39,402 bases of DNA from Zetaproteobacteria bacterium (GTDB lineage Bacteria > Bdellovibrionota_B > Oligoflexia > Oligoflexales > Bog-1112): the NCBI GenBank assembly GCA_947445855.1, contig CANFEH010000005.1:1-39402 (forward strand), given 5' to 3'. Both the position numbers and the translations under genes were made by a program. Within the stretch, counting starts at the first letter, position 1, and every line of letters starts with the position of its first letter. The notes under the pieces were generated by a model, which searched no databases, was not told the DNA's origin, and was given only the letters and a program-made list of their open reading frames with translations. Positions 24,276-39,402 of this stretch are shown here, in pieces.

Positions 24276-25673
24276 TTATTTTTTTACAGATAGTTCTTCT
24301 CCATTGAAAGAGAGTATTTTTTTTTGATCTCCAACAACGGTTTCTATATGGACTGGTTTCTTCCAAATTTTATAAAGCCTTTTTAATGTTTCAAAGCTTT
24401 TTCCTTGATGAAGAAGTGTTCCATCATAAGAATGCTTTAATAAAAGCTCTCCTTTCGAATGGAAATTATTGTCAATTACTTTTATGATAGGCCATCCACA
24501 GTTTGTAAGAGCACTGAGAATTTGAGGTTTTATGTCTTTAAATTTTCGATCTGTTAAGATGTGTTCTCTTTTTTGTGGATCGTAGTCATAAAGAAACATT
24601 TTAGTTTCATGACAAAAATCTTCATCTAAAAAGTTATCAAGAAAACTCAAATCATTGTGAATTTTTCTGACTTCAAAAATTTTTTCAGTGCCGTTATGTG
24701 ACTTCTCATCCCATTTTTTATGAATGTTTTTAAAGAGTTCAAGACCAAGTCGGTAGGGGTTAATATGTCCTCCTTTGTTTTCAACAATGGAGGAGTATTG
24801 ACAGCAGTAGTCAATAATTTCAGAAATATCAAGAGGGCATATTTCTGTCATCATTTTGCTATGCCAGTAAGTAGCCCAGCCTTCATTTAAAATTTTTGTC
24901 TGTCTTTGAGGAAGGAAATAGTAAGCTTCGCTTCTTATTATATCTAAAATTTTGGATTGCCATATATTGATTTCAGCGTGTGAAGAAAGGAACTTTAAAA
25001 TATCACGTTCTTCATTGAAAATTTGTTTTTCTACTTTTTGAATCTCAACATTTGTTTGAATCTTTTTGTCTTTTAAGAAAGTTTCTAAATAACTTTTTGA
25101 AGGAACAGGAGGTATCTCTTTTTTTTCATCTCTATTTTTTTCTTTTGCAAAAGAGTAAGAAAAAAGTTCTCCTGGATCTATTAAGTTTTCAAGAGATAAA
25201 CAAGTGTCTATGAAATCTTCTACTTCAGAGTAGCTTACTGTTTGAATAATTTCTCTGATAATACTAGCGTTGTTAGCTGATTGATCTAGCATTTTTCGGT
25301 TTGTTTTTGAGAACCAAATATTATTTTTAAAAAAATCACTATGCCCATAAACATGAGCAATGACAGTTTTTTGAGTGCTTAGATGATTAGACTCTAACAG
25401 ATAGGCATAACAAGGGTCATTGTTTATAACCATTTCATAAATAGTAGCTAGACCATACTCATAATTTTTCATGAGTTTGTCATATTCCATTCCCCATCGC
25501 CAGTGAGGGTAACGTTTAGGAAGCCCTCCATAAGCAGCAACTTCATGAAGTTTTTTATAATCTACAAGCTCAAATATGGTTGTAAAAAAATCCAAACCAA
25601 CTTCTCGCGATTTTTTTTCCAAATCAGTGATTATTTTTTCCAAGTTTTCTGGGAGAGTTTTTTGTTTTGACAT
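24276..25673 (-). CDS. spoVR: SpoVR family protein
   Basis: This is a 465-aa cytosolic protein of the SpoVR/YcgB family. Typical blocks are PHWRWGMEYDKLMKNYEYGLATIYEMVINNDPCYAYLLESN, VIAHVYGHSDFFKNNIWF, LPQRQTKILNEGWATYWHSKMM and GHINPYRLGLELFKNI. The HxxGH-like and EGWATYWH histidine/glutamate clusters suggest a metal site, but the biochemical activity is unknown. The family was named for spore cortex formation in Bacillus; in Proteobacteria it is co-inherited with PrkA (YeaG) and YeaH and is linked to stationary-phase and nutrient stress. It is the last gene of the prkA-yeaH-spoVR operon, starting one base after the yeaH stop codon, which implies translational coupling. Confidence 0.93.
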   Translation of the reverse strand: MSKQKTLPENLEKIITDLEKKSREVGLDFFTTIFELVDYKKLHEVAAYGGLPKRYPHWRWGMEYDKLMKNYEYGLATIYEMVINNDPCYAYLLESNHLSTQKTVIAHVYGHSDFFKNNIWFSKTNRKMLDQSANNASIIREIIQTVSYSEVEDFIDTCLSLENLIDPGELFSYSFAKEKNRDEKKEIPPVPSKSYLETFLKDKKIQTNVEIQKVEKQIFNEERDILKFLSSHAEINIWQSKILDIIRSEAYYFLPQRQTKILNEGWATYWHSKMMTEICPLDISEIIDYCCQYSSIVENKGGHINPYRLGLELFKNIHKKWDEKSHNGTEKIFEVRKIHNDLSFLDNFLDEDFCHETKMFLYDYDPQKREHILTDRKFKDIKPQILSALTNCGWPIIKVIDNNFHSKGELLLKHSYDGTLLHQGKSFETLKRLYKIWKKPVHIETVVGDQKKILSFNGEELSVKK

Positions 25674-25674
25674 T

Positions 25675-26778
25675 TTAGCGCCCCCGTCCTAGGAAAATTT
25701 TTAAGGAATCTATTATTGCATTGCGATCTTTGATTGCAGCTAGTGCTATTTTTTCTTGGGATTCACCAAATTTTTTGACTAATTCTCTTAAAAACTGTCC
25801 AGAGCCATAGCGAGATTCTACTTGACCATAACAAAACAGGTTGACGACATTTATCATTTTTTCTTCGATAAGCTTGAGACATTCAAGAGTGTCGTTACCG
25901 GACCAGTTGTCTCCATCAGAGAAATGAAAAAGATAAACATTCCAGTCATCGTTTTGATAATTTTTTCTGATGATCTCAAGAGCTAACTTATAAGCTGAGC
26001 TGATAAGTGTTCCGCCAGATTCTTTTGTCCTGTAAAAAACATTTGAGTCTACTTCTTTTGCTGTTGCATCATGTATAATGTAGCGTTTTGCAAGGCCTTT
26101 GTAATATTTTGATAACCAAGTATCGATCCAAAAACTTGTGAGTCGAACGATTTCTTTTTGTTCATCTCCCATTGAGCCTGAAACATCCATCATGTAGATA
26201 ATTGCTGCATTGCTGCATTGTTTAAATGTTTCTTTTGCTGTTAAAAATCTCCTATCTTCTTTAATAGGAATTATTTTTGGATTTTGAGCATTGTATTCAC
26301 CTGAGCTGATAGATCTTTTGAGAGCTTTTAAATAAGTTTGTCTGAAAATATTAAGTGAATTGGGCCCTTCTTTATGAACACTCGTGTAGCGATAACTTTT
26401 GTTACTAGCTTCTCCGTAACCACTTGATCGGATGTTGGGAAGCTCTAATTCTTCGCCTAGGATATCAGCTAGTTCTTCTAATGGCACATCCATTTCAAGG
26501 GAGTGCTCACCTTCTTCTTCTCCTGCGCCAGTAGATTTTCCTTTTTGTCCGGAATCTTTTTCTGATTTATTTCCACTTGAATTTTTTGAGGCTCCTCCTT
26601 CTCCAGATTTTTCTTCGTCTCCAAAAGAAAAAGTTGGGATTTCAATACTAGGCATTGGGATAGTTATATTTTTCCCAGATTTTCTTAAGATTATCCCACC
26701 ATTTGAGATAAATTGACGGAGTTCTTCTTTTATTTTTCCACGGATAATTTCTTTGAAACGTCTGAGATCAGATTCCAT
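25675..26778 (-). CDS. yeaH: YeaH/DUF444 family protein with VWA domain
   Basis: This 367-aa cytosolic protein belongs to the DUF444/YeaH family. The N-terminal half is basic and then low complexity (GEGGASKNSSGNKSEKDSG), as in other YeaH proteins, and includes LRRFKEIIRGKIKEELRQFI. The C-terminal half is a von Willebrand A-like domain whose metal site DVSGSMG lies at residues 198-204, followed by YIIHDATAKEVDSNVFYRTKESGGTLISSAY. It is thought to work with the kinase PrkA. GAGGT precedes the ATG. It sits between prkA (49 bases upstream) and spoVR (one-base gap). Confidence 0.93.
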   Translation of the reverse strand: MESDLRRFKEIIRGKIKEELRQFISNGGIILRKSGKNITIPMPSIEIPTFSFGDEEKSGEGGASKNSSGNKSEKDSGQKGKSTGAGEEEGEHSLEMDVPLEELADILGEELELPNIRSSGYGEASNKSYRYTSVHKEGPNSLNIFRQTYLKALKRSISSGEYNAQNPKIIPIKEDRRFLTAKETFKQCSNAAIIYMMDVSGSMGDEQKEIVRLTSFWIDTWLSKYYKGLAKRYIIHDATAKEVDSNVFYRTKESGGTLISSAYKLALEIIRKNYQNDDWNVYLFHFSDGDNWSGNDTLECLKLIEEKMINVVNLFCYGQVESRYGSGQFLRELVKKFGESQEKIALAAIKDRNAIIDSLKIFLGRGR

Positions 26779-26827
26779 TTATTTTGACCTCTTTTTTTTA
26801 TTTTAATCTTTTTTGCTCAGAGTTTTT

Positions 26828-28897
26828 TTAAGAATTTTTTGCAGGATTGTGAAGAGAGTCACCTCTTGCAAAAATACTTGCGACAAAGCTTAGTACGTCA
26901 CTTGCACAAGTTTCACAATACCCATGGTTTTTGATAAGTCTATTTTTAACAACATTGATTTTTTCTTCAGTGTTACGGTCTACTACTTTTGAAACAAGAG
27001 TTGTTAGTTTTATAGAGTCTTTTTGATCTTCAAAAAGTTTCAGCTCAAGAGCTTTGTGGAGTCTTTCATTTGCTTTGAAATCAAAGTTTCTACCATCAAG
27101 AGCAAGCGCTCCAATGTAATTCATTATTTCACGCCTAAAATCTTCTTTTCTGTTTTCAGAGATATCAATTTTTTCTTCGATAGATCTCATGAGGCGTTCG
27201 TCAGCTTCTTCAGCAAGTCCTGTGTAATGGTTTTTAATTTTGTCTTTTTGTACAAAAGCTTTTACATTGTCAATGTAGTTTGCGCATATTTTTTCTATAG
27301 CACCTTCATCAGCTGATATAGCTTGTTGTACTTCGTATTTGACTATATCTTCGTACTCTTTTTTTACAATAGAAATGAGTTCTATGTATTTTCTTTTTGT
27401 TTCTGTGTCAGTTATTAGAGAGTGGTGTTTTAAGCCGCTTTCTAATTCATTAAGAAGAATGAATACGTTTAAGCAACCTTCTCCTTTGTTGACAATAAGA
27501 GCGTGAGAAATTTTGTCTTGTACATAACGAGGACTGATCCCGTGAAGCCCTTCTCTTAAGGACTCTTTTCTTAGTTCTTTAACACTATCCTCTGTGTAGT
27601 TTTGATTTGTTTTTCCGTTATAAAGTTTAAGCTTTTGAAGAAGGGATAAATTTGATTTTTTAGGTTCTTCAAGTCTTGTTAAAATAGACCACATAGAAAC
27701 CATTTCTAATGTATGTGGTGCTATATGAATATCTCCAACTGTTTTTTTATTGTAGTCTTTTTCGTAAATACGAACTTCATCTTTTAGTTTTGTGATATAA
27801 GGTATGTCTATTTTTATTGTACGATCGCGGAGAGCTTCCATGTATTCATTATTTTGAAGTTTTCTGTATTCAGGTTCATTTGTATGACCAATAATGACCA
27901 GGTCAATGTCGCTTTGGGCATATTTTTTTGGTTTAATCTTGTGTTCTTGACTGGCTGTTAGAAGATCATAGAGAAAAGCAACATCAAGTTTAAGAACCTC
28001 TACAAATTCAATGAGTCCTCTATTAGCAACATGGAACTCACCGTCAAAGTTGAAAGCTCTTGGGTCTGAATCTGAACCATATTCAGCAATTTTTCTGTAG
28101 TTGATGTCACCTGTTAGCTCTGTCGAGTCTTGATTTTTTTCATCTTTTGGTTGGAATGTGCCAATACCAATTCTGTCTTTTTCTGAAATTAAGACACGGT
28201 GAACTTTAATATGTTCTGTGATGATTTTTTCCCAATTACCTTGGTAATGTTCCATAAGATTTTTATACATGAAACGACAAGCAGGGCAAAGGTCTCCTTC
28301 TATATGAAGGTGCTTTTCTTTAGGAAGTTTCTCGTTCAAAGTTTCCATGAAAAGATTTCTTTTTTCCTGAGGAATGAGATGGAGAGGGTCCTCGTTAATA
28401 GGACATTTCATTACATTTTCCATGGAAAGAATTTTTCCGACATGAGTCCAACTGTAAGAGTAGAGTGCTCCTTCATTTGTGCGTGAATAGTTTTCAATCC
28501 CTTTTTTTAGAAGACGAACAATTGTTGATTTAGAAGAGCCTACAGGCCCATGAAGAAGGATCAGTCTTTTTTCAGGGCCGTAGCGATAAGCAGCTGCTTT
28601 TAGAATGTTCATAAGCTTCATGAGGCTTATATCAAGGCCAAAGACTGCATCTTTTCCATTGTCTAAAGGGTCACTAAAAAATTTCCACCGGATGATTTTT
28701 TTCTTATTGTCAATATAGGTTTCAAAGCCATGGGAGGCTACCATGTCATATATTCGCTTAAAAGCTGTTCCGGTCACCTCAGGGTGCTCAAGCACTATAT
28801 CTAAATAGTCTTTGAAGCTACCTTGCCAGTAATTTTTAGCATCAGCTTCGCTTAATTTTTTTTGAGATAATAGGTCGAAGATATGATCTGAGTTCAT
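26828..28897 (-). CDS. prkA: PrkA/YeaG AAA+ serine protein kinase
   Basis: This 689-aa cytosolic protein has an N-terminal AAA domain and a C-terminal kinase-like PrkA domain. Walker A is [10 protein letters not shown] at residues 116-125; [23 protein letters not shown] is the family's Walker B/sensor region and [34 protein letters not shown] is highly typical. Cysteine pairs occur in [11 protein letters not shown] and near the C-terminus ([13 protein letters not shown]). The length matches E. coli YeaG (644) with a slightly longer N-terminus. The family phosphorylates proteins in nutrient-stress responses. It heads the operon, with GAGG before the ATG and a strong extended -10 about 145 bases upstream. 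The order prkA-yeaH-spoVR is the one widely conserved in Proteobacteria. Confidence 0.95.
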
Positions 28898-29639: not shown

Positions 29640-31193
29640 CTAAGTGTTAGAGCTGCCTTCTTCTTCTGTTTCGCTATTTTCAAAAACATTAGAAATATGG
29701 CGAATAGAATAGAACCATCCTGAAAGCATAGGAATGAGTAAAACAAGAAAGAAAGGTGCCATGGCAGAAACTGTTGGTAAGAAAAGGACAAGCACTTGTA
29801 CAGCAATAGCTCCCCCTGATTTTCCAAGTCTTGAACCTACTCCATCAATTACAGCTTTAGCTTTAATTTTATCATCCTTTGACAAGGGGATAAATGCGAG
29901 CTCTTTTGTAGTGTCAAAGAAAGTAAACTTTGCTGAACGACAAAGGCTATTTTGAATACCCCCTGTGAAAACAACCACAGCTAAAGGAGTTAAACCCGAT
30001 AAACCGATTGTGTCAAAAAAAGATGAGTACCCAAAGTAATGAAGGAAAAAAGCAAAGAAAAACAAAATAGAAGTTAAAGATAGAATAATAGGGGTGAATA
30101 GAGCTGTGTTTTTCCACTTAAATATTTGTAAGAAAGTTGAAATAGCAAGACCAAATATGATTGAAAAGACTCCAAGTAGCATAGCTATATAACTCATATA
30201 ATTATGATAGTCTGAAACTTTTGGGTAAAGAACATTGGTTTGATCTTTCCAGAGAATTTCTAGAATATTCATACTCAGGTTGTAAGCTAACACTATAAAA
30301 GCGATAGAAAAAATATATTTAGACTGAAAGCATTTAGCAAAAGCTTCACGCATTCCCATGTGTGAACTTTTTTGTTCATCTGAAACAAAAGTGACTTCAT
30401 TAGGGGATGGAAATTTCTTGTACGTAAAGTGAAAGATTCCTAGAATAAGAATGCTTGAAATAATAATAAGAGCCATTAAACCATAAAGCGTGTGATCCCA
30501 AGCACAACAAGCGTTGAAGACTAGATTGTCTTGGCTATAAGTATTAAAGTAGTAAGAAACCATCCCTGCAACAAAACCTGAAACATTTCCAAGGAGATTG
30601 ATAACACCGTAGAATCTCTTTGCTTGATAAAGAGGAGTTATATGGTTAGCAAATCCCCAGAAGAGAACAGAAAGAACAATGCTACTCCACAGTTCTGCCA
30701 TCACATAAAAAGTGGAGAGAGGCCAGTAGTACAAAAGAATGAAAAATGTTCTAAAAAAAGCAGAGTAGTTCAACCATGAATCTTTGCTTGCAGAAGGATT
30801 TTCTAAGAGGAGAGCTTGACTACCTAAATAGATTGAATCTTTGTTTGGATAAAGAATGAATGTGAAGAGGATAAAGTAAGCAAGAAAAAAAGAAATAAGA
30901 ACATAAAAAGTTTTTTGGAAACCGAATCGGTTGCAGAGCCAAGTGAAAAGAGTTGCTCCAATTAAAGCAGAAGGAAGAACAGCCCAGGTTTTTAAGAAGG
31001 GGAGAACAAGAGCTGTCGAGTTTTCTGCTGTTATAATGAGAGGGTCTTTTAAAGCCTTTAATATTGTGTAGTTAAAGGAAATAAGAAAGACAAGAGCAAT
31101 AAGTAAGAGACACTTTAGTGTTTCCTCCGGCTCAATTGGCCATAGAAAATTTGAAAGTGACTTCAAGTAAGAACTCTTTTTTTTTATTGGCAT
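29640..31193 (-). CDS. ATP/ADP (nucleotide) translocase, Tlc/NTT family
   Basis: This is a 517-aa inner-membrane carrier of the family found in plastids, Chlamydiae, Rickettsiae and a few other intracellular bacteria, where it exchanges host ATP for bacterial ADP or imports other nucleotides. The family start is clear: FLWPIEPEETLKCLLLIALVFLISFNYTILKALKDPLIITA, followed by LPFLKTWAVLPSALIG. Later come YVMAELWSSIVLSVLFWGFANHIT and FFDTTKELAFIPLSKDDKIKAKAVIDGVGSRLGKSGG, the latter highly diagnostic. Twelve or so helices are expected. The track starts at a TTG (31202); the ATG at 31193 has AGAGG about ten bases ahead and is preferred. It is divergent from udk. Whether it trades energy (ATP/ADP) or nets nucleotides cannot be read from sequence by eye. 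Confidence 0.95.
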   Translation of the reverse strand: MPIKKKSSYLKSLSNFLWPIEPEETLKCLLLIALVFLISFNYTILKALKDPLIITAENSTALVLPFLKTWAVLPSALIGATLFTWLCNRFGFQKTFYVLISFFLAYFILFTFILYPNKDSIYLGSQALLLENPSASKDSWLNYSAFFRTFFILLYYWPLSTFYVMAELWSSIVLSVLFWGFANHITPLYQAKRFYGVINLLGNVSGFVAGMVSYYFNTYSQDNLVFNACCAWDHTLYGLMALIIISSILILGIFHFTYKKFPSPNEVTFVSDEQKSSHMGMREAFAKCFQSKYIFSIAFIVLAYNLSMNILEILWKDQTNVLYPKVSDYHNYMSYIAMLLGVFSIIFGLAISTFLQIFKWKNTALFTPIILSLTSILFFFAFFLHYFGYSSFFDTIGLSGLTPLAVVVFTGGIQNSLCRSAKFTFFDTTKELAFIPLSKDDKIKAKAVIDGVGSRLGKSGGAIAVQVLVLFLPTVSAMAPFFLVLLIPMLSGWFYSIRHISNVFENSETEEEGSSNT

Positions 31194-31251
31194 ATTAAGC
31201 AAGCCTCTGCCATACTAGCGAATTACAGACGAGCTCATCCAACACTAGCAT

Positions 31252-36886: not shown

Positions 36887-38578
36887 TTATTCTTTTTTCT
36901 CAGTAAATTCTCTTTTTTCGTTTTTTATTTTAGAAATAGCTTCTTGAGCAATTGATCTATAGAGTTTAAGAAAAGCTTGTTTTGCATCAGTTCTGAATTC
37001 ATCTGTTATTTTTAAATTTTTCCTTATAGAGGCAATTATTTTTTGTCTTGTGAGTGGTAGGAGGTTTAAAAAATCTTTTTCTTTTTCATTCCCAAGAGCT
37101 GATAAACAAGCAATGACAATATTGTTATCTAGTTCAGTTAAAACTTTTTTAACTTCTTTAATATTTTCTGCTTTTATAGCTTTTTCAAAGGTAATTGTGA
37201 AGACACTATAATTTTCACCTAGATTTATTTTGTGATCAGATTTTGCCACTTCTAAAGTCAAAGCAACTTCTTTATCATTGTTAAGCATGAGGTCTAGAGA
37301 ATTTTTTTGTGAATTTTTATCATAACCAACTTTTGATTTTTCTTCATCATAGAGACCTCTTAATTTAACCTCAAGTTCTGTGATCATCTGAGCTTTACCG
37401 TCAAAAAAATCTTCTTTTGTCAGAATTGATAAAATTTCCGCTTTTTTTCCAATCCCCATAATACTTAAAAGTTGTTTCACTTGGCTATCACTGAGAAAAC
37501 TGATAACAAGAGCCAGCTCTTCTTTTGAATCTTTTAATTTATCGTAGATGACTTCTGCATCTAAGCGGTTTAAAAAACCAAAAGGAGTGCTCAAAGAAAC
37601 ATTATGAAGAGCTACATAATCATTAAGATTTTGTGTCAGTTTTTCTATGGTGTTTTTTTCAAAACTTTCATTTTCTAAATCACTTGAAATAACAATGTCA
37701 GAATATTTTGTAATTTGATCATAAAAAATAGAGTCTAGCATAGACTTTGCTATAATTTTTATATTTTTTTCGTTTAATCCTTTTATGAAGCTTCTTAAAG
37801 AATCGTTATCTTTTTTATAGGCAATGAGAATAGATCTGCGGAGATTTTCTAAAGTTTCTTCGATTGTCACTTCTTTTTCTGCATTTTTAGCAGGTGAAAA
37901 TTCTCTTGGAGTTGTTGATTCCTCTGATTTAGAGGCTTTTTTGCGCCGATTTAGCTTAAAAAAAAAGAGTGCAAGAATCAGGATGACCCCTATAAGAAGA
38001 TAGAGAAGTTGTAGAAGATTTTTTTGTAAAAAATTGCTCCAATAACTTCCTGTTAAGATTGGGTCATAAGCAAGAAGGTCTGAAATTTCTGTACGAAGAC
38101 TTGCTTTTGTGTCAAAGTTTTTTTCCATTTTGCTTGTCAATGCATTTTTTGCAAGAATTTGTAAGGATTCTGGAAGAGTTTTTTCAAGCACTAGAAAAAA
38201 TTCAACTGATTCAAGTTTGATTTCGTTTTGTACCGCAAAATCTTCTTCAGACGAATTGTCTTTTTCTGGGGTGTTTGGAACAGTAAGAGCACTCTCAAAG
38301 CCAGGTCTTGATTTAGTTATCGTTTCATCTTGAGATTCTTGTTTTTTAATTTTTTTACCAATTAAAACATCAACTTTTTCAACTGATAGTTGAACGTTGA
38401 CAACAAGGCTAAAAGTTTTTTCTGGTAGAATTTTCTTTAAAACGCTATTAAATCTTTCGTGAATTTGGTTTTCATACTTAACTCGTGTGTCTTCAGGGTC
38501 ATTGTTTTTAGTTTCAGGTAAAAGGTTAAGAGAATGTAAGAGTAAAATAGAGATTAAAGTTAACTTTAATAAGTTCAT
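36887..38578 (-). CDS. FliF(C-terminal)-FliG-like fusion protein, non-flagellar context
   Basis: This is a 563-aa protein I do not recognise as a named family. A signal-like helix (1-20) is followed by YENQIHERFNSVLKKILPEKTFSLVVNVQLS (35-65), which resembles the FliF segment before its second membrane helix, and by KLESVEFFLVLEKTLPESLQILAKNAL (121-147), similar to the last FliF ring-building part. One membrane helix (188-207) leads to the cytoplasm. Residues 331-390, PFGFLNRLDAEVIYDKLKDSKEELALVISFLS, resemble the FliG middle domain, although the EHPQ motif is replaced. Residues 485-540 (NNIVIACLSALGNEKEKDFLNLLPLTRQKIIASI) resemble the FliG torque domain; acidic torque residues seem not conserved. 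It overlaps the TPR gene by ATGA. The FliG match is the stronger of the two. A repurposed rotor-like ring is an inference. Confidence 0.6.
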   Translation of the reverse strand: MNLLKLTLISILLLHSLNLLPETKNNDPEDTRVKYENQIHERFNSVLKKILPEKTFSLVVNVQLSVEKVDVLIGKKIKKQESQDETITKSRPGFESALTVPNTPEKDNSSEEDFAVQNEIKLESVEFFLVLEKTLPESLQILAKNALTSKMEKNFDTKASLRTEISDLLAYDPILTGSYWSNFLQKNLLQLLYLLIGVILILALFFFKLNRRKKASKSEESTTPREFSPAKNAEKEVTIEETLENLRRSILIAYKKDNDSLRSFIKGLNEKNIKIIAKSMLDSIFYDQITKYSDIVISSDLENESFEKNTIEKLTQNLNDYVALHNVSLSTPFGFLNRLDAEVIYDKLKDSKEELALVISFLSDSQVKQLLSIMGIGKKAEILSILTKEDFFDGKAQMITELEVKLRGLYDEEKSKVGYDKNSQKNSLDLMLNNDKEVALTLEVAKSDHKINLGENYSVFTITFEKAIKAENIKEVKKVLTELDNNIVIACLSALGNEKEKDFLNLLPLTRQKIIASIRKNLKITDEFRTDAKQAFLKLYRSIAQEAISKIKNEKREFTEKKE

Positions 38579-39177
38579 TCTTTTTTCTCCGTCCTTTCTT
38601 TTGTGATCTTGTTGATTTCGATTTTAAGATCATCTTGTTCAGGGTTGTTTTTTAAAGACTCTTGGTAAAACTGAAGACCAAGTTCTTTGTTGCCTTGTTC
38701 CATATAAACAGAGCCAATCATTTTGTTTATGAGTGCTGAGTTTGGTTCTGTTTCTTTAGCTTGCCTCAGGTATTCAAGTGCATTTGATAAATCACCTGCG
38801 ATATAGCTTCCCTTGGCTTTTTCAAGTAGAAGAAGAACCATTTTGTTTTCAGAGCTGTCACCCAGGTTCTTTTTGTTTTCTTCTTTTTCTTTTGCCAATT
38901 TTTCTTCTTTTTCTTTTTCTTCTGCTTTTTCCTCTAGTTCTTGTTCATGTTGTTCTTCAAAATCTTCTGGAAGTGGAAGCTTTATAATGACACCAGGGGC
39001 ATAACTATTGAAATTTTTTAAGCGATAACTTTTAGAAAATCTTTTGTCATAAACAACAATATCATTTCCTACTATTTGGTAATCATAATAGTCCACTGTG
39101 TTTGCTATAAGAAAATATGAAAAGAAAATAAGGGATAAATAAAAAATAGTTTTAGTTTTTTTTATTTTAGCCAACAT
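38575..39177 (-). CDS. Membrane-anchored TPR protein of the FliF/FliG-like operon
   Basis: This is a 200-aa protein with an N-terminal signal or anchor (KTIFYLSLIFFSYFLIANT), so it probably faces the periplasm. A short beta-rich domain follows (YYDYQIVGNDIVVYDKRF, then APGVIIKLPLPEDFEE). Next is a long charged, E/K-rich coiled segment (about 75-105) and two tetratricopeptide repeats (KAKGSYIAGDLSNALEYLRQAKETEPN and GSVYMEQGNKELGLQFYQESLKNNPEQ). No specific family is recognised. The start overlaps the end of the upstream barrel gene by 11 bases and the stop overlaps the FliF/FliG-like ATG as ATGA, so the three are translated together. This fits a periplasmic link between an outer-membrane barrel and an inner-membrane ring. 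Confidence 0.75.
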   Translation of the reverse strand: MLAKIKKTKTIFYLSLIFFSYFLIANTVDYYDYQIVGNDIVVYDKRFSKSYRLKNFNSYAPGVIIKLPLPEDFEEQHEQELEEKAEEKEKEEKLAKEKEENKKNLGDSSENKMVLLLLEKAKGSYIAGDLSNALEYLRQAKETEPNSALINKMIGSVYMEQGNKELGLQFYQESLKNNPEQDDLKIEINKITKERTEKKE

Positions 39178-39402
39178 CGATACCGACTCCTAAAAGAATT
39201 GAATAAGGAAATTTTCCGTTAAAATTAAGAGCATCCGTGTTGTTAGCTGTTTTTGCTGCGGATCCACCGATTAAGTTAATGTAGAACCTAGCTTCTGATA
39301 GTAAATAAAAAAATGTTCCAAGCTTTAGCTTCAAACCAAGACCTGTGTGGATATGAGTGGAAATAAGAGAAGTCGAAATCCCTGCTTTTAGAAGTCCATG
39401 AA
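39167..39402 (-). CDS. Outer-membrane beta-barrel protein, C-terminal part only
   Basis: This is the last 78 residues of a gene whose start lies beyond the window; it is not in the ORF track. The hand translation gives HGLLKAGISTSLISTHIHTGLGLKLKLG, then FFYLLSEARFYINLIGG and, at the end, FPYSILLGVGIDVG and a stop. Alternating hydrophobic residues, paired short strands and the GVGIDVG ending are typical of outer-membrane barrels. It overlaps the TPR gene start by 11 bases, making it the upstream member of the same operon. The function cannot be read from this fragment. Confidence 0.65.
   Translation of the reverse strand, partial: HGLLKAGISTSLISTHIHTGLGLKLKLGTFFYLLSEARFYINLIGGSAAKTANNTDALNFNGKFPYSILLGVGIDVG

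Follow-up and report, generated by a model that had tools for sequence, protein, structure and literature searches.

A putative FliF-FliG fusion rotor encoded with MotAB stator proteins and a barrel-like outer-membrane protein in Oligoflexia with and without flagella

Can the rotor and the stator of the flagellar motor stay together in a bacterium that has no flagellum, and what would they then drive? The question is raised by a small gene cluster at the end of the window, the whole stretch of DNA analysed here (39402 nucleotides), which is the entire contig C5 of a 1.79 Mb assembly (G000) estimated to be 84% complete. The original prediction, made from the letters of this sequence, proposed that a ring or switch module resembling FliF and FliG had been rebuilt as one protein and linked through the periplasm to an outer-membrane barrel. 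The homologies of the fusion protein, the gene order and the stator genes described below support this interpretation, while ring formation, contact with the barrel and the biological task still rest on inference. Our own reading, to which we give a probability of about 0.7, is that the core of the flagellar motor has here been made into an ion-driven machine of the envelope, one that is not part of a flagellum and delivers torque to the outer membrane.

The putative single-chain rotor protein is encoded on the reverse strand by one open reading frame of 563 amino acids (36887-38578), as had been reported. Its signal-peptide-like N-terminus (residues 1-24; 38507-38578) is followed by a periplasmic domain resembling FliF RBM3, located by a profile-profile match to the FliF C-terminal domain (residues 28-172; 38063-38497), by a membrane helix at the position of FliF TM2 (residues 188-206; 37961-38017) and by a FliG middle and C-terminal domain, delimited by family-profile and profile-profile matches (residues 334-543; 36950-37579), all on the same strand. 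The signal-like helix and the one membrane helix of the original prediction were both recovered: topology and the alignment to FliF agree on the segment 188-206, which is the single strong membrane helix, and the hydrophobic segment at residues 3-21 is weaker. Because more positive charge follows the membrane helix than precedes it, the FliG part is predicted to be cytoplasmic. AlphaFold models computed from the single sequence without alignment were poor for the whole fusion and for the periplasmic domain (pLDDT 38 and 42, respectively). A Foldseek search with the weak model of the latter returned FliF or SpoIIIAG as five of the top six matches, none of them significant and none with an E-value below 0.19, which amounts to a hint and no more.

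The assignment to FliG depends on the relatives of the window protein and not on this protein alone. Pfam, NCBIfam and PDB searches conducted with the single sequence found neither FliG nor FliF, and its best Pfam match was a sub-threshold one (4e-4) to MgtE_N, a domain whose fold is known to resemble FliG. Only the profile of the family, whose members are tied to the window protein by E-values of 1e-71 and 1e-32, gave a match: FliG ranked first among solved structures (1lkv, E 3e-18) and nothing other than FliG and MgtE rose above noise, FliG being ahead by 16 orders of magnitude. Set against flagellar FliG, the family gave a profile-profile E-value of 1e-8 across the M and C domains, the reversed control not being significant, and two relatives passed the Pfam cut-off for FliG_C (1e-6 and 9e-9). 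The family profile and these FliG_C matches bear out the FliG-like segments first suspected, and homology of the cytoplasmic part to FliG M and C is strongly supported.

The likeness to FliF is of moderate strength. Compared with six close FliF sequences, the periplasmic domain gave no significant match (probability 0.4), and the FliF claim was at first rejected. A diverse FliF set, with the membrane helix included, raised the probability to 84% with a co-linear alignment to RBM3 and TM2 and a PG motif shared in the insert; this restored the claim only in part, the score being inflated by the helix (reversed control 29 of 49). With the helix excluded, the window family alone and without a bridge matched weakly (probability 4%, p 0.01), yet above all shuffles, and the claim was accepted once a bridging Marinamargulisbacteria protein was added (probability 70%, p 4e-5; the score was 37.7, and no shuffle out of 40 exceeded 17.4). 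The domain shows, in order, a helix, a strand, a long insert with a conserved PGF motif, a strand, a helix and a strand. On the diverse set and the bridging protein, we consider its match to RBM3, the last ring-building domain of FliF, moderately supported, and with it the original description of segments like the C-terminal periplasmic part of FliF. A lack of any significant FliF or FliG profile match would have refuted that description; profiles match both. No match to RBM1/2 (the YscJ/SctJ region, PF01514) was found in the genome of the window.

The fusion gene does not stand alone. Next to it on the reverse strand lies the gene for a TPR protein of 200 amino acids (38575-39177; Pfam TPR_1, 1e-6) comprising a hydrophobic signal-like N-terminus (residues 10-28), an acidic linker and TPR repeats, which is conserved at all readable loci. 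The third gene, also on the reverse strand, encodes a barrel-like outer-membrane protein and runs off the contig at 39402. Its last 77 codons (39167-39402) are left, and these align to residues 279-352 of a paralogue. As originally stated, the fusion and TPR frames overlap by ATGA and the barrel frame, ending at 39167, overlaps the TPR start by 11 bases; overlaps of 4 bases are found in many copies of the cluster. Judging from this arrangement, the fusion gene is translationally coupled to those of the TPR and barrel-like proteins. The barrel-like protein has no Pfam or PDB match, an amphipathicity test for barrel strands gave z values from -0.1 to 2.5 over seven members, and a barrel fold is suggested by the texture of the sequence, without confirmation.

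The first half of the interrupted gene was recognized on another contig of the same assembly. Contig C40 breaks off within a barrel gene, the first 255 codons of which are present and align to residues 12-276 of the barrel on contig C27; this half is preceded by divergent genes for MotA, MotB and an outer-membrane protein, as on C27. We place C40 next to the window in the genome, an inference that relies on complementary gene halves with no shared bases and is not proven. The original remark that no other flagellar gene is nearby therefore holds within the window, and does so only through the contig end, MotA and MotB being on C40. A paralogue of the fusion is encoded on C27 (E 7e-69), and divergent copies of the whole system were located on C27 (L006, 7084-11792) and C40 (L170, 13148-17000). 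Because C40 and the window are inferred to be adjacent, the genome would hold two complete sets. On C27 the genes for the outer-membrane protein, MotB and MotA run in one direction and those for the barrel, TPR and fusion proteins in the other, and each copy in this genome carries a DUF5723-like outer-membrane protein gene beside MotB. In six other genomes (G003, G007, G017, G023, G024 and G033) the order is barrel, TPR, fusion, MotA, MotB. The succession barrel-TPR-fusion is thus kept at every readable locus, and the question of whether stators accompany it is answered by MotAB genes at every locus with a readable neighbourhood.

How far does this cluster depend on flagella? A protein search detected relatives in two genomes from the family to which that of the window belongs, and a profile search added another four of full length, from other families of the order, plus one truncated at a contig end. 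The genomes searched are assigned to Oligoflexia, the class that includes Silvanigrellales, on the identity of G056 with the named record L069. The fusion set is present in eight of the approximately 56 (56-58) of them; full-length barrel and rotor occur in exactly the same eight of 56, and the gene order is preserved between families at 20-35% identity. Two of these genomes, G000 and G003 (84% and 93% complete), are without FliF, FlhA and FliM/N, yet retain the set, and in G007, G023 and G024 it is present in addition to a flagellum (FliF, FlhA, FliM/N). Homologues always sitting in ordinary flagellar operons would have spoken against the original prediction; none of those found lies inside one. 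The clusters contain no partner of filament, hook or rod type, and no FlhA-family protein, with its association with type III secretion, was encountered in the genome of the window. At the level of gene content, these genomes demonstrate that the system is independent of flagella. The full-length type A fusion is absent from nine genomes reached through the loci (other groups and one already-sampled Oligoflexia), a scan of contigs from genomes with the single window protein gave no match, and a MotA-alignment scan brought up mostly other MotA/TolQ proteins, with a full-length fusion in none of 80 loci among the matches listed.

Elsewhere on the reverse strand of the window, SpoVR and PrkA genes with one open reading frame between them (24276-28897) form a pair that we take to be a common stress-kinase cluster. 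Positions 29640-31202, also on the reverse strand, encode a TLC-family ATP/ADP transporter (PF03219, E 7e-132), here in a small genome without a flagellum. Carriers of this kind are a hallmark of intracellular energy parasites, and their presence suggests an intracellular or host-associated life style for the organism; host contact is therefore as open a task for the system as gliding.

The stator proteins are of the flagellar type. MotA matches solved MotA/PomA at 2e-29, compared with 6e-8 for TolQ. A tree of 36 sequences separates MotA from TolQ/ExbB with a support of 100/100; the eight MotA sequences of the system fall on the MotA side, where they make up a single clade (100/100) distinct from the flagellar MotA encoded in these genomes. 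MotB retains the invariant channel Asp in its membrane helix and an OmpA-like peptidoglycan-binding domain. The residues by which rotor and stator, or rotor and switch, would meet are a different matter, and alignment confirmed the original observation that the EHPQ motif and the acidic torque residues are altered. EHPQ, the motif of the FliG middle domain that binds FliM, is absent from all eight family members; flagellar FliG proteins of this class have it. Among the positions of the flagellar FliG-MotA contact pairs (PMC12505986), the Arg aligned with FliG R281 (R511 in the window protein) is invariant (8/8), and the acidic pair D288-D289 is missing from the window protein and most relatives; R281 and D288-D289 follow E. 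coli numbering. No MotA of the eight has an Arg at the aligned R90 column, and the equivalent of Glu98 is not conserved in an alignment that falls in a divergent region. With neither the FliG Asp pair nor an equivalent of MotA Arg90 in place, fusion and MotA cannot touch in the flagellar manner, and possibly do not touch at all. That both partners have lost such residues points to a stator and a rotor rewired for each other, an inference that is only as good as alignments of divergent regions.

Other rotor types with FliG domains are encoded in the same class. Type C, to which locus L069 from the MotA-alignment scan was the first pointer, measures 770-880 amino acids and combines two periplasmic C-x3-C domains, a membrane helix and FliG M and C, with matches to both FliG_M and FliG_C. 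It is found in 27 of 56 Oligoflexia genomes, adjoining MotAB in L069 (2503-5145) and L210 (9635-12148); the flanks of L029 (253-2565) are too short. The N-terminal domain of the barrel-like protein is found again in a second barrel, the occurrence of which goes together with that of this rotor: 25 of the 56 genomes have both, two the rotor only and two the barrel only, and in G048 barrel, MotA, MotB and type C rotor adjoin one another. Fisher p values for rotor-barrel co-occurrence (7e-10 and 3e-11) ignore shared ancestry and overstate independence. Type B, of about 740-780 amino acids (L026, 1-2205; L037, 1390-3603, reverse strand; L038, 1-1854), consists of a periplasmic and coiled-coil part, a membrane helix and FliG_C, and is followed by MotA and MotB in G017, G036 and G052. 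The FliF_C-SLH-FliG protein of Candidatus Marinamargulisbacteria (825 amino acids; L213, 6793-9270, identical to L200, 574-3051) matches Pfam FliF_C at 1e-9 and FliG_C at 6e-15 in one chain. Its genome also has an ordinary FliF and FliG.

No structure, expression or phenotype data stand behind the machine that we propose, whose working can be pictured as follows. MotA and MotB would form the stator, anchored to peptidoglycan by the OmpA-like domain of MotB; ion flow past the conserved Asp of MotB would drive MotA, which would push on the FliG domain of the fusion protein. Held by its one membrane helix, the fusion protein would assemble through its RBM3-like domain into a ring, the formation and rotation of which are both inferred. 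Torque may then cross the periplasm to the barrel-like protein, a coupling likewise inferred, in which the TPR protein would act as an adaptor or in assembly, and rotation or cycling of the barrel-like protein would perform work at the surface. Since RBM1/2 (export) and EHPQ (reversal) are absent, neither export nor FliM/FliN-type switching is expected. Among possible tasks, moving a surface or adhesive structure during gliding, attachment or host contact seems the likeliest, though our confidence in it is low. Tentatively, and with slightly less than even confidence, the locus could also stand for a class of torque-generating machines that are neither flagellar nor of the ExbBD/TolQR/Agl kind, in which MotAB turn single-chain FliF-FliG rotors that drive outer-membrane barrels, with several independent versions in Oligoflexia and perhaps in Margulisbacteria, serving surface movement or host contact.

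The same genes can be read without a rotating ring. The fusion protein could be a static scaffold, or a linear energizer driven by MotAB in the manner of TolQR or ExbBD, with conformational cycling for import, secretion or envelope integrity. The rewired torque-contact residues, the resemblance of the barrel and TPR proteins to parts of transport systems and clusters devoid of filament, hook or rod partners all agree with this reading; it is nevertheless improbable in our opinion, if far from dismissed, as MotA groups with flagellar-type MotA and not with TolQ/ExbB, and the domains combined here, FliG M and C and one like RBM3, are those that build the ring of a rotor and take up torque. No use of FliG is known for ExbBD/TolQR systems.

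Two further readings deny the cluster a motor of its own. Most relatives of the organism have a flagellum (FlhA in 45 of 56 genomes), and the genes might be the decaying remains of one that drift has preserved, or might supply the ordinary flagellum with additional stator and rotor parts. Genomes without a flagellum nevertheless have the set intact, one of them twice over; it has its own MotA clade, keeps its order between families at 20-35% identity and has lost the FliM-binding motif; drift, moreover, would not keep the channel Asp and the OmpA domain. This reading was rejected on these grounds and retains very little plausibility. The sub-threshold MgtE_N match of the window protein alone would be explained if the likeness extended only to the MgtE_N/FliG helical superfamily, in a membrane sensor or regulator lying beside unrelated stator genes. 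This is barely credible in view of the 16 orders of magnitude by which FliG beats MgtE, the matches of both FliG_M and FliG_C in a second rotor type and the recurrence of MotAB linkage in unrelated arrangements.

Under the preferred reading of an ion-driven envelope machine, the locus is a tangible example of genes for rotor and stator being retained side by side where no flagellum exists, and, if true, an undescribed machine bringing torque to the cell surface. It bears on how flagellar motor parts may work before or after the flagellum, because the missing parts are those of export and switching. The motor behind gliding in Bdellovibrionota has been described as an open challenge (PMC13104615); the system is a candidate for it, although these species are not known to glide.

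MotAB-linked FliF-FliG fusions were not found described in the open-access literature; most subscription papers and all preprints were outside this scope, and the absence is not proof of novelty. Within it, the nearest described case is the FliF-FliG fusion of Chlamydia, a shortened FliF fused to FliG sequence in a non-swimming bacterium for which FliF, FliL and FlhA are listed as flagellar genes, and discussed beside an injectisome (PeerJ 2016, PMC4768692). That protein is reported to be homologous to the M region only of FliG in its cytosolic part and keeps part of the SctJ region (PMC4768692), whereas the window system keeps FliG M and C, loses the export part and has linked MotAB and barrel genes. 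The Marinamargulisbacteria protein likewise unites a FliF C-terminal domain, a membrane helix and FliG M and C in one chain, and its gene is followed by those of two proteins with C-terminal TPR and barrel-like central parts; it differs by S-layer homology domains inserted in the FliF part, by the lack of adjoining MotAB and by belonging to another phylum. With the flagellar motor core (FliF MS ring, FliG and MotAB) the system shares FliG M and C, an RBM3-like domain followed by a membrane helix, MotA, and MotB with its Asp and peptidoglycan-binding domain. Here, in contrast, the rotor is in one chain without RBM1/2 (PF01514) and linked to an outer-membrane protein, the genome of the window has no FliM/N, FlhA or FliF, and EHPQ, the FliG Asp pair and MotA Arg90 are missing. 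AglRQS, GldLM, ExbBD and TolQR, which are 5:2 ion-driven complexes, resemble it in that a MotAB-like complex acts on the envelope outside flagella (PMC9389320, PMC12505986, PMC13104615), but unlike it they have no FliG-type rotor. AglRS, ExbBD and TolQR have been placed in the generic (GIT) clade (PMC12505986), whereas the MotA of the system described here groups with flagellar-type MotA.
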